In this document: positions 7,299 through 50,963 of the stretch, one piece after another
Layout of the letters: every line of letters starts with the position of its first letter
Numbering within the stretch: position 1 is the stretch's first letter
Origin: Marinifilum flexuosum
Lineage (GTDB): Bacteria; Bacteroidota; Bacteroidia; Bacteroidales; Marinifilaceae
Assembly (NCBI RefSeq): GCF_003610555.1
Contig: NZ_RAPQ01000015.1
Location: forward strand, 1-64,000
Direction of reading: 5' to 3'
Length of the DNA: 64,000 bases
Translations under genes and position numbers: made by a program
The notes under the pieces: generated by a model
Seen by the model: only the letters and a program-made list of their open reading frames with translations
Databases searched by the model: none
Told to the model about the DNA's origin: nothing

Positions 7299-8213
7299 TT
7301 AAACTACTTCTATAGGAATGGCTTCCATTTTCAAATGCAATTTGCTTCGTTCCGAAGCATAGCGACGAATTGGAATGTATAAGGTTTTGTAATTGATATT
7401 TTCAATAATGAGTCGGTGCTCCCCTTCCGGGAAGTGCCTGAATCTAAAGGTACCGTTCGCAGTTATGTGGGTCGATAAATCCATACCTTCTACCGATACC
7501 TTGCCCAGTGAAATTGGCTCACCGCTAGCCTTGTCTTTTAAGTAACCTAACACATCGTAATGGCGTTGTACTCCTTTGGCCTTTTGTCGGGCTGCAAAAT
7601 AGTAATTCACAAAATCGGGATGGGTAGCACGCAGGTTTTCAATGCTATAATCCAACTTGTAGTTTAAAAGCTTATTGATCTTCTTCAATAAACGATTGAA
7701 TTCATCCCTTGCAGTAGCCTTGTCCTCTTTTAAAAGAATCAGATCGGCGCGCTTTTGCTCAAAGGCTTTGCCATCGGTCTCTACAGCCGCAATGCTTTCT
7801 TCGCTAACACCAAAGGCTGGTAAATCGGCCACATGCTGCCTAGCAATACCAATGATCTGCTTGTAAAAATCAATCAGTTTCAATTCGCTAAAGCTCGTTA
7901 AAACATACTTTGTAACACTTGCCTTCCCCAATATCTCACTGTTTGATACAGAGTTGGCATAACATACCAATCCATTACATACAAGATAGAGCTTGTCTAT
8001 CAAAGATTTCTTTACTGCATTTTTTTCGCCAATTAACCATTTTACAGGCTGATCGGCTTCCTCTTTCAAATTTAAAAGTTGTTCCAGATCTGAAGCAAAC
8101 TGATCGGCCTGAGCTTTGGTGTTCACATTGGTTTCATAAATACTCGCATTCTCAGTCAAAGCCGTATTGGTTTGTACAAAAGAATCTAACTTTAAATTAC
8201 TTTCATTATCCAT
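7299..8213 (-). CDS. Helical protein with C-terminal carboxypeptidase-regulatory-like domain (304 aa)
   Basis: Residues 1-215 are predicted helical, with no signal peptide. Residues about 220-300 form a transthyretin-like beta domain of the CarboxypepD_reg kind: VLGYLKDKASGEPISLGKVSVEG, then a F-R-F strand, then PEGEHRLIIENINYK. The same architecture recurs in the 308-aa protein at 41987-42913, also on the minus strand, also followed by a terminator plus the same repeat family, and also preceded by an ORF of 21-bp repeats. The function is not known. The missing export signal is unusual for this beta domain and suggests a cytoplasmic or non-Sec-exported structural role. Confidence 0.75.
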   Translation of the reverse strand: MDNESNLKLDSFVQTNTALTENASIYETNVNTKAQADQFASDLEQLLNLKEEADQPVKWLIGEKNAVKKSLIDKLYLVCNGLVCYANSVSNSEILGKASVTKYVLTSFSELKLIDFYKQIIGIARQHVADLPAFGVSEESIAAVETDGKAFEQKRADLILLKEDKATARDEFNRLLKKINKLLNYKLDYSIENLRATHPDFVNYYFAARQKAKGVQRHYDVLGYLKDKASGEPISLGKVSVEGMDLSTHITANGTFRFRHFPEGEHRLIIENINYKTLYIPIRRYASERSKLHLKMEAIPIEVV

Positions 8214-8353
8214 TCTTTAAGTTTTTTTAAATAGTTGATAATCATCCCAAAGACACAGAGTCGCGCTTTATGATTGTATCATACAACAGCACGCGACATA
8301 AGAGGTTTAATTTATTTCGTTTATTGATCTATCAGCTCTTTAATTTTTTTGAT

Positions 8354-8593
8354 TTAGCTGAAATCTGAAGGATATATTTCCATTCTGGAACGATCTATTT
8401 TCATTTCTGAACCTTCTATTTCCATTTCTGCACAGTCTATTTCAATTTTTGTTGGATCCATTTTCATTTCTGCGCAGTCTATTTCAATTTTTTTTGGATC
8501 TATTTTCATTTCTGAACAATCTATTTCCGTTCCTAATAGATTTACCATTAATGATTTTTGGCATACACACTCTCTGGAAGTGTATTCTTCCAT
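8354..8593 (-). CDS. Small protein made of heptapeptide repeats (79 aa)
   Basis: After a short unique N-terminus (residues 1-20), the protein is built from 7-residue units of the form K-[IM]-x-[IM]-D-x-x, for example EIDCAEM and KMDPTKI, encoded by eight exact-length 21-bp units (8371-8538). No signal peptide or membrane segment. Alternating hydrophobic residues suggest short beta strands in a solenoid or fibre rather than a coiled coil. It lies 140 bases upstream of the 304-aa gene. A small repeat ORF also precedes the related 308-aa gene. Translation is plausible because reading frame and ATG are kept, but an untranslated minisatellite cannot be excluded. Confidence 0.5.
   Translation of the reverse strand: MEEYTSRECVCQKSLMVNLLGTEIDCSEMKIDPKKIEIDCAEMKMDPTKIEIDCAEMEIEGSEMKIDRSRMEIYPSDFS
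8371..8538 (-). repeat. Tandem repeat, 8 x 21 bp
   Basis: Eight units of exactly 21 bases with no indels. Units beginning GATC and AGTC partly alternate, giving a hint of a 42-bp higher-order period. The period equals seven codons and matches that of the 43133-43384 array, although the unit sequences differ. Confidence 0.85.
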
Positions 8594-41986: not shown

Positions 41987-42913
41987 TTAAGCCATTACAG
42001 GCTTATTGGTTTCAACAGCTTCCAGTTTCACATCCAACTGTAAGGTATGTTCTGGTAAAACAACTACCTGCATTACAACATCCAGATATCCTTTCTTGCT
42101 GAAACGCAACTCGTGTTCACCAGCACTTAAAGTTTGGATATAAAAACCACCCTGCTTTCCACGGTGGGTAACTGCTTTCTTGCCATCAATGGAAATCCTT
42201 ACATTACGTATGGATTCACCAGTTTTGGCATTGGAAAACATTCCCTGTAGAGCTCTTTGTCTGCTCGAAGCATTGTCCTTGGTCATGATCACCAAAAACT
42301 CATCGAACAAATCAGGATCACTTTCAGCATAAACGCTACGCATGTATAGCATCAATCCTCTTTTTACCAACAAATTGTATTTGTCTAACAATACATCAAT
42401 CTGCTTGGTAATATCGGCATGCTCTACCCTAAAGTCTTTGGGCGCACTTATCACATTGGAAAAATTCGTAATACTTGTTTCCAAAGCACTTTTTAAATCC
42501 TCATCTACTTTGGCTGCTGTAGCCTGCGTAGCATTATTGGCAACAATAGAGAGTAAACTATCAGCACGAATTAAGGCCTCTTCCTCCTTGCAATTGTGCA
42601 ATTGGTGTTCAAAACATCCTTCCACACTCGAGAATATTTCAAACTCATGAAGCGTACCGTAACTAATAATCAGATCATTCACTTTGGCACAATTGCCTAC
42701 CATAATTTCAAACAAATTGTTCTTATTAATGGTATAGGCTTTACTGCTAAGGGCTTGCTTTGGAACCAGCACCGCCAATTCCGCATTCACTTCCCTTATG
42801 GGTGCCATCAAATCATTATAATTTGTATCCTCCTGTAACTTGGTCTGATGCTTCAGATCAAATGCACACAAATCTTGCACCTGTCTGTGTAAAATCAGTT
42901 GTTTAGATTTCAT
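41987..42913 (-). CDS. Helical protein with C-terminal carboxypeptidase-regulatory-like domain (308 aa)
   Basis: Same architecture as the 304-aa protein at 7299: about 215 helical residues, then a CarboxypepD_reg-like beta domain (QGMFSNAKTGESIRNVRISIDG, GGFYIQTLSAGEHELRFSKKGY). No signal peptide. The helical halves are only weakly alike; the shared layout is what supports paralogy. Upstream, 197 bases away, is an ORF of twelve 21-bp repeats. Downstream lie a terminator and the promoter repeat also seen at 180-300. Function unknown. Confidence 0.75.
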   Translation of the reverse strand: MKSKQLILHRQVQDLCAFDLKHQTKLQEDTNYNDLMAPIREVNAELAVLVPKQALSSKAYTINKNNLFEIMVGNCAKVNDLIISYGTLHEFEIFSSVEGCFEHQLHNCKEEEALIRADSLLSIVANNATQATAAKVDEDLKSALETSITNFSNVISAPKDFRVEHADITKQIDVLLDKYNLLVKRGLMLYMRSVYAESDPDLFDEFLVIMTKDNASSRQRALQGMFSNAKTGESIRNVRISIDGKKAVTHRGKQGGFYIQTLSAGEHELRFSKKGYLDVVMQVVVLPEHTLQLDVKLEAVETNKPVMA

Positions 42914-43109
42914 ACAAAATATGTTTATGATTTTTAAGCTTTATTAGGTATCTAACTCTATTCGAGTTTCAAGAGAGAGGTTTTAGTACCATACGTATCC
43001 AATTGTTTCACTTACATTCTAGTTTGTTCAGAAGCATTTCTGTTTCAGAAGAAGCAATTTCTTCTTTGTCATGCGCATTTTTTATTTCAACAGAAGCATT
43101 CTCAAAACT

Positions 43110-43394
43110 CTATGCCTTAATTTTTATTTGATCACTTACACTTTTGCTTGCTGCACTTACAGTTTTGAGTTCATCACTTACAGTTTTGGGTTCAACACTT
43201 ACACTTTTGCTTGCTGCACTTACACTTTTGCTTGCTGCACTTACACTTTTGCTTGCTGCACTTACAGTTTTGAGTTGATCACTTACACTTTTGCTTGCTG
43301 CACTTACAGTTTTGGGTTCTGCACTTACAGTTTTGGATGCTGCACTTACACTTTTGGCATCAACACTTACAATTAGCCAAACTTCACTTACCAT
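43110..43394 (-). CDS. Small protein made of heptapeptide repeats (94 aa)
   Basis: ATG at 43394, then a 10-residue lead, and from there V-S-x-x-x-K-[ST] repeated, for example VSAASKT and VSAEPKT, ending QIKIKA. No signal peptide. The unit is 21 bp. The conserved part is VS...K, and residues 3-5 vary (AAS, AEP, DQL, VEP, DEL). All frames on both strands are nearly open, a by-product of the period, so coding strand is uncertain; the minus strand is preferred because it has an ATG at the array edge and matches the neighbouring gene. Confidence 0.5.
   Translation of the reverse strand: MVSEVWLIVSVDAKSVSAASKTVSAEPKTVSAASKSVSDQLKTVSAASKSVSAASKSVSAASKSVSVEPKTVSDELKTVSAASKSVSDQIKIKA
43133..43384 (-). 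repeat. Tandem repeat, 12 x 21 bp
   Basis: Twelve units, each beginning CACTTAC, at exact 21-base spacing with no indels (43133 + 252 = 43385, where a thirteenth partial begins). At least five units are the identical CACTTACACTTTTGCTTGCTG type. High identity implies recent expansion. Confidence 0.9.
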
Positions 43395-44805
43395 TTTTAT
43401 GATGGCATTAACAATTTTTCAAAGAGTAGCATCACCTTTCCCCTTCTTTCTGTCAATCTTTAATTGCCAGCACTCAACTTCTTTTCACTTTCTTATCAAT
43501 AAGTATATTGTACTCTTCATTCCATTGCTAAAATCTGCAAAAACAAAGCTTAATAAGCATTTACATTCTCATCATATATCCTTCTGTTTAATTAAACTTA
43601 AACATTATTTTTCAATTGATTACAAAAACCATCACATTAATTGATGAAAAATTTCAACAATCCATCTTCAAATATTAATGTTAAATTTTCACCCCTATCT
43701 TATTAAATTTAAAATAGCTTTTACTTGAATAAAAAGACCACAATAGAATGATTTAATGATATTTACCATTCAGGCAAATGGTAATTTGTATTATGCTTTT
43801 TTTACAACACGTATTCTTTTCTCCTTTAGAGCCTGTCTCGATTAATCGGGAAGAAAGATAGAAGGAGGTATTTTCTCTCCGATATCACCTCACCTCAATC
43901 CTCTCCTCAAGGAGAGGAATTTGTGCAAAGAATGTGAAGGCGTAGGATATTTGTGTGAGTTTTCTATGATAAAACCATCCTTTTCCGTCGCAATAAAATC
44001 CGCCAACAAAACAACTTAACCAGTTGCGACGATCAATTACAAAATCCATGAACCCAAGGCGGCAGTCACTTCGCTCCCTTCACCTGGGCTAGTATGATCT
44101 TTGCCTTTCAGGCAAAACATATTGAAACCACCTCCTGTTTGTTGCAGTAAGTGTGACATCCAAAAATTTGTTGGGCCCCATAGATGAAAAAGTCGTTAAA
44201 AACAGAATTCCATGAACGAGGTACGAGTGAATATTATTTTATTCACAGAATAATTATATCTGTAAGGTGTTCATGAGCTCACTTCGTTCGGTTGTTTAGA
44301 CTTTAAATCGTTATGGGTAACTAAATTTTTGGCGTCTAGATCTTTTGGTTCTTTTATAGCAATGATAACCGAGCTATGCGAGCTCATGAATGCCCGTTAA
44401 AATTATGAATGAATAAAAGAATAGCCCGTCTGGCTTGAAGACAAGATAGAATAAAGTGTTTTCCTTCCTATATCACCTCACCTCAATCCTCTCCTTAAGG
44501 AGAGGAAGTTGTGCAAAGATTGTGAAGACGTAGGATATTTGTGAGAGTTTTCTAGGGTAAAACCATCCTTTTCCGTCGCAATAAAATCCGCCAACAAAAC
44601 AACACTCCCAATTGCGACGATTTACTATAGAATCCATGAACCCAGGGCGACGGTCGCTTCGCTCCCTTCCCCTGGGCTATTATGATATTTGCCTTACAGG
44701 CAAAACAGTTATATTGTATTAATGCATTACTATTTTTTACAACACGTATTCTTTTCTCCTTTAGAGCCCGTCCCGATTAACCGGGAAGAAAGATAGAATG
44801 AGATG
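43395..44805. other. 1.4-kb non-coding region with duplicated REP-like elements
   Basis: No gene supported; the plus-strand frame 43291-43644 is an extension of the 21-bp repeat into AT-rich DNA. From 43798 the region is made of repeated blocks described separately. Confidence 0.65.
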
Positions 44806-48626: not shown

Positions 48627-50207
48627 TTACTCGTAAAATATTCCAAGAGGAACTGGTTTTGAATTAACTGATACTGTAAAACGGCACTCTGATGTATTAC
48701 CCCAAGCATCTGTAGCTGTATAAATCACTGTGGTATCTCCATCTGGGAATACTTGTCCTGATGCCATATTTGCCGTTAATGTTGGTGTACCACAATTATC
48801 AGTTGCTGTTGGAGTTGTCCATGTTATCACATCTCCACTACAAGCATCAATATTCGAAGGACAATTAGAAATAACCGGAGGAGTTTCATCACGGACTCCA
48901 ATTGTAAAATAGCTCACCCCATCAGGTGGATCAAAAGAGGTTGCATACTGATCTCCATTTCCAATCAAGGTATGAGTGCTGATAACACCGTTGGAAAGAT
49001 TTGTGTCATTATCTAAAAACAAGGTATAAGTTCCTGTTGAAGAAGCTGGAAAATTTTTCAAATTTATTTGCAGAAAGATTGTCCCTACATCCATCGTATT
49101 TTGTAATCGCCAAAAACGATTTATACGTTTAGAGCACCCCACATTCACCCAAGAATTCATGCTTTGATTATTATGTCCCCATAATAGAAATTGACCTTCA
49201 CTTAAGGATTGTCTGCTATTATCGAGGTTTGATAGAGTAAAATTATTTGTTGTTGCAAAAACAGTATTTCCACTTGTATTTACACCAAGGTTCCCCGAAG
49301 ATGAAACCTTTTGGTCCAAATCAAATGGAGAATTTTCCCTTGCCAAACCCGCCACATCGTAACGATACGTAGAGGTAGCATCCCAAACTGAGGTCCCATC
49401 AGCTTTTAGGTAGCTTATTGCCTGATTATTATTCCCCAAACTCAACCCATACTTTATTGCCAAATACGATTCTGTAATTTGACGCTGGGTATTATTTAAA
49501 GCTCTATTGAAGACAATTTGTTCAGAAATATCACCATACCAGAAATAATTTCCCGACCCTTCGGTTGCTCCCGCTCCTATTCGATAAGGCCTTCTTCTAT
49601 TTCGGGCAAAACGATGACTTGTTGGACCTGCAAAACTTTGTCCGTTAACATAGCCCCTCTTCACCAAATTATTACCACTTTGACTACCTCTGTAAATTAA
49701 TAACTCGGAACTCGAAGAAGCAGATCGAGTCGTACTTAAAACTCTCCATCCACTATTGTTTCCTTGTCCATTCCAAAACTGATACCTTCCATTGGGTGCC
49801 ACATATAAAATATAACCTCTTTGTGGACGATCATCACGAGAAGTGAATGGCGAACGGTATCTATTGTTTCCCCCTGTTAATCGATGAACCGAAAAGACAG
49901 TAAAATTATTTGTATTAAGCCCACTGCGATAAGAAATATCCAAATTATCTGATCCATCGAAATAAAAAGTAGGATTAAAGTTTGAACCTGATAATTGATA
50001 CAAAGGTCGTCTTGAAGAACTAGGAGCAAAGGCATTCCAACTATTTCCCGATTGGTCTACCCAAGAAACAACACGACTTCCAGATAAATTTACTCCCACG
50101 TCAGCTCTAAGCCAAAGAGATTTAGCAGGTACTATCTGGGCTTCAGCGACAACTGTTAAAAGTAGGAAGCCAATTACCAGAAAACAGCTTGAAATAAAAC
50201 TTCTCAT
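48627..50207 (-). CDS. Secreted LamG-like / HYR-domain protein
   Basis: 526 aa. Signal peptide ending AEAQ. Residues 25-250: ASKSLWLRADVGV, then VSWVDQSGNSWNA, then INSGNYFWYGDISEQIVFNRALN, a lectin-like jelly roll as in many Bacteroidota gliding/adhesion proteins. Residues about 430-515 form a HYR domain (PPVISNCPSNIDACSG, then ATDNCGTPTL, TVIYTATDAWGNTSECRFTV). It stops soon after with PLGIFYE and has no type IX secretion sorting domain. Larger homologs go on with more HYR/PKD repeats, so this may be a truncated relic. Confidence 0.7.
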   Translation of the reverse strand: MRSFISSCFLVIGFLLLTVVAEAQIVPAKSLWLRADVGVNLSGSRVVSWVDQSGNSWNAFAPSSSRRPLYQLSGSNFNPTFYFDGSDNLDISYRSGLNTNNFTVFSVHRLTGGNNRYRSPFTSRDDRPQRGYILYVAPNGRYQFWNGQGNNSGWRVLSTTRSASSSSELLIYRGSQSGNNLVKRGYVNGQSFAGPTSHRFARNRRRPYRIGAGATEGSGNYFWYGDISEQIVFNRALNNTQRQITESYLAIKYGLSLGNNNQAISYLKADGTSVWDATSTYRYDVAGLARENSPFDLDQKVSSSGNLGVNTSGNTVFATTNNFTLSNLDNSRQSLSEGQFLLWGHNNQSMNSWVNVGCSKRINRFWRLQNTMDVGTIFLQINLKNFPASSTGTYTLFLDNDTNLSNGVISTHTLIGNGDQYATSFDPPDGVSYFTIGVRDETPPVISNCPSNIDACSGDVITWTTPTATDNCGTPTLTANMASGQVFPDGDTTVIYTATDAWGNTSECRFTVSVNSKPVPLGIFYE

Positions 50208-50963
50208 TAAATAATAAAACTTAACACAAATTAATTCACTACAGCATTGCTAATACTGCATATCTCATCAATTATCATGAGTACAAATCGACTGGCACAA
50301 TATATTTTTTTACATGCGAAGCATCATTTTGTTTCAAAAGAAGCAGACTTTTCACAATCTCTTCTCCAATTGGAATTAAGCCAATGTCCACTCTTACTCA
50401 ATTGAGCAATGAATAGGTGCGAAATTTTATTGGAAATAATGGCAATTCAAACTATTCTCCAATTTCCAAAACCTTCCCCTTTTAATTAACATTCAATAAC
50501 TGCAACATGATGCCAAAGATAAAGGGCTACAATATAGTTTAACTAAACTTAAACGACAAGAGAAAATTTGAAGAGGCTAAATTAAAAAAGTTTCTCCAAC
50601 CGCTACATAGCTGACAACTCTTTCTTTTCCTTAATCGTCACCACTACTGCACAAAACGAAATTATCGACCTCTTCCTGTTCCAGCCAAAACAACCACCTC
50701 ATTACCTAAGTTATAGAAGATTATTAATAAGTTTTCAATGATTCGTTGTATATCTTTTACCATATTTTATTGAAAATTCAAAAAACTTATTAAAATGCCA
50801 CCTTCTACATATTTTTCTTACGATCTAATTTCATAACACACATCAAAAGTGAATCTATCGTAAAGCATGTAACCACATAGTAAGCAACTCTATAAACAAC
50901 AAACCTCAATCAAAGAGTTTTACTCTGATAAATTTCAACAGAAGGATTTCTTACCTAGCACAA

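Follow-up and report, generated by a model that had tools for sequence, protein, structure and literature searches.

The window, the whole 64-kb stretch of DNA analysed here, contains two loci of similar build. At the first, a gene for a 304-aa protein of what we call the helical-bundle family lies on the minus strand at 7299–8213, as indicated by its open reading frame, Pfam, a family search and a structure model. AlphaFold2 places an all-helical N-terminal domain in codons 1–209 (7587–8213, minus strand), and profile and model together place a transthyretin-like CarboxypepD_reg domain in codons 221–296 (7326–7553, minus strand). A spacer (8214–8349) separates the gene start from array 1 (8350–8565), a row of imperfect 21-bp direct repeats with a 42-bp alternation; neither is assigned a strand. 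A 79-aa heptapeptide ORF runs across the array on the minus strand (8354–8593). The second locus consists of a 308-aa paralog (41987–42913, minus strand), a spacer (42914–43092) and array 2 (43093–43423), the last two again without strand. The 21-bp direct repeats of array 2 have a unit unlike that of array 1 and are crossed by a 94-aa heptapeptide ORF (43110–43394, minus strand). A sequence search assigned the 304-aa and 308-aa proteins to one family.

This layout agrees with the first-pass annotation of the same DNA, which had described the 304-aa protein with a heptapeptide-repeat ORF 140 bases upstream (here the 79-aa ORF; both confirmed on the minus strand) and a second arrangement at 42–43.4 kb with a different unit of equal period (here the 308-aa and 94-aa ORFs). 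The structure model of the 304-aa protein likewise agrees with its description there as a helical protein with a transthyretin-like beta domain. The repeats had been read as eight exact 21-bp units, and here the description had to be corrected: Tandem Repeats Finder reported imperfect copies with 67–84% matches over both arrays (array 1, 67% at period 21 and 78% at period 42; array 2, 84%), with core periodicities of 21/42 bp at 8364–8532 and 21/63 bp at 43133–43356. According to the same program, arrays 1 and 2 are the only long arrays in the window; the minor repeats are a 2.2-copy 20-bp row at 50193–50235 and a 3-copy 12-bp row. Beyond array 2, two similar intergenic 54-aa ORFs lie 588 bp apart (43885–44049 and 44473–44637) and are probably a duplicated intergenic element.

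In the predicted structure of the 304-aa protein, the N-terminal domain is helical throughout residues 3–209, and residues 1–212 modelled alone with AlphaFold2 reached a pLDDT of 97.6. This domain is the part common to the members found, including those that have no C-terminal domain. The Pfam profile CarbopepD_reg_2 ends both window proteins at residues about 223–299, scoring 33 bits in the 304-aa protein (cut-off 32.2) and 32.2 bits, at the cut-off, in the 308-aa protein. The CarboxypepD_reg assignment thus covers the C-terminal domain only, which only some members have and which the phylum-level ones mostly lack. Outside the C-terminal domain, nothing in Pfam or NCBIfam exceeded its cut-off in the members scanned, and five proteins compared with PHROGs and PADLOC gave no match better than E 0.006. 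A Foldseek search of the helical domain against solved structures returned nothing significant (best E 0.55), and VIA-align 2 gave Z values up to 9.3, which the tool's notes describe as the usual range for helical bundles.

Relatives of the family were found across many families of the order; a genome tally of 259/295 from that search was discarded, as it counts receptor-like genes that match through the C-terminal domain alone. In the home genome of the window, ten members have no inner stop; a further copy is degenerate, with three stops, and one more match is weaker. The degenerate copy (locus L224, G000:C1, near 255211–255711) has a strong 42-bp array upstream, with a match of 0.96. Downstream of a 305-aa paralog, a 367-bp tandem duplication with 97% matches was observed (L003:2562–3291). 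Among the other genomes of the phylum draw, 10 of 295 have relatives at E <= 1e-20, mostly without the C-terminal domain.

We scored arrays by self-similarity in the 900 bp before the start codon, with a threshold match of 0.55; the period class "near a multiple of 21 bp" comprises 29.6% of the periods scanned. Removal of five ORFs with less than 350 bp upstream and of six that were 150 aa or shorter reduced the 115 family ORFs to 104 genes, a hand-picked, non-random sample with 40 regions from strong N-terminal matches and the others from the family search. An upstream array reached the threshold at 84 of these 104 genes; 20 remained below it, and another top period was found in four more, so that 80 remain whose top period is close to a multiple of 21 bp. 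Downstream flanks reached it in 13 of 98 cases (4/98 near a multiple of 21 bp, 9/98 at other periods), and receptor-like CarboxypepD_reg control genes in 1 of 19 (0/19 near a multiple of 21 bp). Shuffled upstream sequences reached the threshold in 0 of 104 cases, which excludes chance periodicity. Distant, phylum-level members behave in the same way: 25 of 27 pass, with the top period close to a multiple of 21 bp in 23 and at 7 or 8 in two, and their downstream flanks pass in 6 of 27 cases, with 2/27 in the near-21 class.

The first-pass annotation had made the pairing depend on homologs having an array nearby; with 80/104 and 23/27 that do, the pairing largely stands, and its scope of two loci proved too narrow, the arrangement being present at most sampled family members. 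Per-unit period is exactly 21.0 bp in 68 of 80 arrays (range 20.67–22). Across 79 arrays, the median length is about 312 bp and the distance to the start codon about 186 bp. At L072 and L249, the last unit beside the gene is an inverted copy of the repeat. Among 223 neighbour ORFs, no cluster recurred at more than 3 of 79 loci, that is, no conserved neighbour was found. What accompanies the array throughout is the helical domain and not the CarboxypepD_reg domain, and there is strong support for treating array and gene as one unit.

Do the arrays encode proteins? Both window loci have open frames, and 21 bp is a multiple of three, as would suit arrays that encode heptapeptide-repeat proteins partnering the downstream protein. 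Across loci, at least one sense frame is open in 17 of 79 arrays and an antisense frame in 19 of 79, and the top period is not a multiple of three in 11 of 80 arrays (22, 44, 62, 83, 85, 86 and 106 bp). Conservation within units carries no 3-bp signal (z -1.0 in 65 arrays, -1.3 in 38 clusters), and the 3-bp harmonic gave z -2.7 in 22 arrays not used before. At the Marinifilum sp. D714 ortholog (L042; 88% protein identity), no sense frame of the array is free of stops, and those in the heptad frame leave stretches of 31 and 34 aa. On these four grounds we rejected a heptapeptide-repeat coding gene, a reading to which we now attach almost no credence; the earlier suggestion of a two-component structural system at the protein level is not supported. 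The heptapeptide ORFs are very probably not genes: the 79-aa ORF is judged so from the stops in D714, and the 94-aa ORF, by analogy, would simply reflect a 21-bp unit that has no stop in frame.

The sequence of the repeat unit, in contrast to its spacing, is private to one locus and its close orthologs, diverging fast as the period is kept. Unit similarity exceeded the 99th percentile of the null in 26 of 30 pairs at protein identity of at least 60%, in 2 of 30 pairs at 45–60% (1/30 on the opposite strand) and in 12 of 190 pairs at 30–45%. Below 30% identity, 57 of 1830 pairs (3.1%) did so, against 47/1830 on the opposite strand, so the excess is slight and not strand-specific. No motif common to the loci was found, while the period persists. 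Four of the six 22-bp arrays belong to one protein clade (support 93 in a quick tree), a hint of a link between protein and spacing; shared ancestry would explain the clade too. The sense strand of the 21-bp arrays is purine-rich in 58 of 79 arrays and subsequently in 17 of 23.

To examine the unit itself, we aligned the units of each array and analysed conservation along the unit by Fourier power. For the 65 arrays whose unit is 21 bp long, power at the 10.5-bp harmonic was 2.16 times the mean (z 10.5; 0/300 permutations), and dereplication to 38 protein clusters gave 2.28 (z 10.1). The 21-bp harmonic was lower (1.56, z 4.4; 65 arrays); because power at 10.5 bp exceeds that at 21 bp, smoothness alone is insufficient as an explanation. 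In 22 arrays not used before, the 10.5-bp power was 2.05 (z 5.5), with the 21-bp harmonic also raised (1.81), and five 22-bp arrays lean alike at 11 bp (z 2.5). The simplest reading of the 10.5-bp pattern is contact with double-stranded DNA from one side, once per turn. A sub-period of about 5 bp appeared in raw autocorrelation only, not above composition-corrected and control correlations; same-base correlation gave no excess for phased A-tracts at 10–11 bp, and a contiguous conserved 10-bp core was significant in only 8 of 65 arrays.

A second family, DUF6261 (PF19775), also has arrays. Its genes with arrays came from home-genome stretches taken at fixed positions; 53 of 56 ORFs had enough upstream sequence, and 46 of these 53 have an array upstream, against 2/53 downstream at any period. 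Top periods are 40–43 bp or multiples, with a unit of 41–42 bp. The 10.25- or 10.5-bp harmonic is strong in these units (z 9.8 in 16 arrays of 41 bp; z 5.5 in 10 of 42 bp), also in 10 new 41-bp arrays alone (10.25 bp, z 7.7); among the first eight arrays of 41 bp, the 13.7-bp harmonic stood out as well (z 3.7). The two families are alike in that a small, helical-looking Bacteroidota protein follows an upstream helix-phased array, and unlike in the 41–42-bp unit with frequent dyads on the DUF6261 side. The window proteins gave no Pfam match to DUF6261 at E <= 1, and hhalign aligned the two families collinearly but weakly (probability 8%, single-comparison E 0.004). In the available part of the open PMC literature, DUF6261 is named only by one unrelated paper; if our reading is right, the array pairing is a first lead for this family.

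DUF6261 arrays contain 10.3 dyads per kb, compared with 1.8 after shuffling; 28 of 46 have two or more inverted repeats of at least 7 bp, and the dyad sequence differs by locus. They fold strongly on both strands (mean z -5.4 and -6.2; 23 arrays), and their sense strand has no purine bias (20/46). Because G-U and A-C mismatches in the dyads are similar in number (25 and 32), neither RNA strand is favoured, a comparison of low power, and we prefer to regard these inverted repeats as DNA dyads rather than RNA hairpins. In the 21-bp arrays, RNA hairpins were considered and set aside, with no folding excess and 2.53 inverted repeats per kb against 1.95 in shuffled sequence; a second 21-bp set gave 2.64 against 2.2 per kb.

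These observations bear on whether the array might be a repeat RNA that binds or restrains the downstream protein, as in type III toxin-antitoxin loci (ToxIN, CptIN, TenpIN, AbiF), where tandem repeats lie upstream of a single protein gene. The layout is alike, the repeats are locus-specific, units at DUF6261 loci could form hairpins, and the purine-rich sense strand of the 21-bp arrays would suit a transcribed array too. Yet conservation follows the 10.5-bp turn of the duplex, as expected of DNA, and the 21-bp arrays lack an RNA structure signal, their folding z being weak and similar on both strands (-0.62 sense, -0.77 antisense; 79 arrays). The balance of G-U and A-C mismatches likewise speaks against RNA, and a crude hairpin-plus-T scan found terminator-like sites between array and gene at 0 of 78 loci (0.4 expected). 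No match to ToxN, CptN, TenpN, AbiF or another toxin family and no significant fold match was obtained here, a missing match being compatible with a relation. We consider the repeat-RNA explanation quite unlikely.

The full promoter motif occurs in the spacers between array and gene with 9 hits at 7 of 79 loci, compared with 0.9 expected. In the sense orientation it never lies inside arrays, and before them it occurs twice (1.8 expected); antisense, it was found six times before and four times inside arrays. The -7 part alone was no commoner on one strand of the spacers than on the other (15 hits each, sense and antisense; 10 expected). These antisense hits and the small number of loci with the full motif weigh against the reading proposed below. 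Where the full motif is found, it lies mostly between array and gene, so that in these few loci the array would be upstream DNA of the promoter. The earlier proposal of a regulatory leader is thus possible only in a changed form, with the array as upstream DNA rather than a transcribed leader, a judgement that draws on 7/79 loci.

Taken as a whole, we see about an even chance that the module pairs a helical-bundle gene with a non-coding array of one-face duplex sites, most likely bound by the product of the neighbouring gene. The gene of the module would encode a soluble helical-bundle protein; the array, non-coding and upstream of the gene, would consist of about 10–20 direct repeats whose period corresponds to two turns of B-DNA (21, sometimes 22 bp). 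Because of this period, each copy shows the same groove pattern on one face, so that the array could present a row of putative protein-binding sites, filled side by side on one face of the helix. The likeliest ligand would be the protein of the adjacent gene, alone or in complex, because unit likeness is found mainly among close orthologs and no common motif was found. The resulting nucleoprotein array may be an operator with many sites that controls its own promoter, a centromere-like site for anchoring, or both. DUF6261 would represent a second version, with 41–42-bp (four-turn) units, often with dyads.

A real difficulty for a DNA-binding reading is that the protein is neutral to acidic and has no known DNA-binding domain: none is recognisable in the helical-bundle protein, which is not basic (median pI 6.6 for the helical domain; 5.0 for DUF6261). 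The same property would favour another host protein, a nucleoid or regulatory factor, that binds the array on one face and for which the neighbouring gene is only a target. Arrays away from family genes, described below, fit such a factor as well, one of them adjoining a LuxR-type regulator. A common factor, however, predicts a common motif, and below about 60% protein identity the units are hardly more alike than shuffled ones. We regard binding by such a factor as unlikely, though with an appreciable share of the probability.

Orphan arrays were encountered in an 864-kb survey that covered the window, 400 kb of the home genome and 400 kb of genome G226. All 11 detected members of both families in this survey have an upstream array, and 40 of the 51 arrays recorded (any period, match >= 0.55) have no detected member downstream; G226 accounts for 28 of these. 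In that genome, 35 arrays of period at least 18 occur in 400 kb (loci L324–L343), mostly at 41–43 or 21 bp and multiples; nearly every one has its own unit, and many lie between ordinary genes. Twelve of the 28 G226 orphans fall inside open frames of at least 150 aa. Nine orphan 42-bp arrays outside such frames, with differing units, carry the 10.5-bp signal (z 5.7), with the 7-bp harmonic also raised (z 3.0), so that the comparison set used for the 10.5-bp signal, the G226 orphan arrays, shows it too. Only 1 of 378 pairs of G226 orphan units shares an 11-mer. These orphans count against the gene-bound reading, because arrays occur there without a helical-bundle gene.

Some orphan arrays immediately precede or follow genes of other small proteins that look helical; others are set among ordinary genes. 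Arrays just downstream of small helical-looking or regulatory proteins were seen at L190:15957–16340, L193:7716–7882 and L334:10293–10627, and further arrays in this reversed order at L335:4517–4818 (LuxR-type by Pfam), L331:19513–19904 and L342:3845–4118. In the home genome, a 21-bp array without a detected family member (L192:19218–19506) is flanked by ORFs that we take to be a LytTR-type response regulator and a radical-SAM gene. In G226, two short similar-looking proteins, presumably HTH-like, each adjoin an 84-bp array (L329:7699–8096, and the 116-aa ORF to the right of L329:15729–15968). A 98-bp periodicity at L203:1057–1584 is due to five tandem tRNA-Asp (GTC) genes. Rfam, applied to nine sources, identified a cobalamin riboswitch (RF00174) at L021:1564–1766 and matched none of the arrays.

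Many orphan arrays in one genome, fast divergence of the unit and variable copy number would all be natural for neutral minisatellites, generated or tolerated at these loci and with a period of no function. That explanation leaves three things unaccounted for, namely the association with genes, the narrow period (exactly 21.0 bp in the great majority of arrays) and the 10.5-bp pattern in two gene families, and we rate it as improbable. Because so many orphans exist, the arrays appear to be a broader phenomenon of which the helical-bundle loci form one regular part. Bacteroidota might, on a more far-reaching view that we hold only tentatively and consider doubtful, carry an unrecognised class of satellite DNA: dozens, in some genomes perhaps hundreds, of private whole-turn arrays, quick to diverge in sequence but not in spacing, for which several small helical protein families (this one and DUF6261 at least) would be the cognate binders, with a centromere-like or chromosome-organising role.

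Should the paired reading be right, in which the neighbouring protein binds a one-face array, one phylum contains a class of two-part loci that is widespread yet has escaped notice, in part because ORF finders make apparent repeat proteins from the arrays. Their protein/array pairs would offer a natural series in which the sites change quickly while helical phase stays constant, and in which the co-evolution of protein-DNA specificity could be studied; they would also be a bacterial parallel to satellite DNA in which the period outlasts the sequence. In the open PMC library we recognised no paper that describes these arrays. Neither the gene nor the array could be placed in a characterised system that we found, and the function proposed here is one that we infer.

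Among known repeats, one similar in setting is the BrickBuilt minisatellite/MITE of Porphyromonas gingivalis, likewise made of intergenic tandem repeats in a Bacteroidales genome. Its 23-nt repeats, in which some positions are conserved and others vary, form one unit family that occurs at 19 sites, and most of these sites have a leader and/or tail and terminal inverted repeats (PMC4596501). BrickBuilt is tied to no single gene family (PMC4596501), unlike the present arrays, whose unit is private to each locus. We set aside a MITE of this type, as units of unrelated loci resemble each other scarcely more than shuffled ones do.

Direct-repeat arrays are in themselves a familiar device. In the iteron arrays of ParR/parC and Rep systems, helix-phased direct repeats of about 10–22 bp lie beside the gene of their binder, upstream of plasmid partition or replication genes, and their specificity diverges between relatives. 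The loci described here differ in being chromosomal, with several to many copies per genome and a protein of unknown fold family. They also differ from plasmid partition systems in having no conserved NTPase, Rep or other neighbour at the 79 loci, and from plasmid systems in general in that a search with the window 304-aa protein turned up no relative on plasmids or in phages. We have not established that the loci belong to any known iteron, partition or toxin-antitoxin system; the comparison we draw is that the array would work like an iteron array. Tandem sites at fixed helical spacing, which define iteron and centromere arrays, are present, and the one-face pattern on duplex DNA that is also typical of them is indicated, indirectly, by the 10.5-bp harmonic. 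As in iterons, tandem helix-phased repeats stand beside a gene whose product is here the putative binder.
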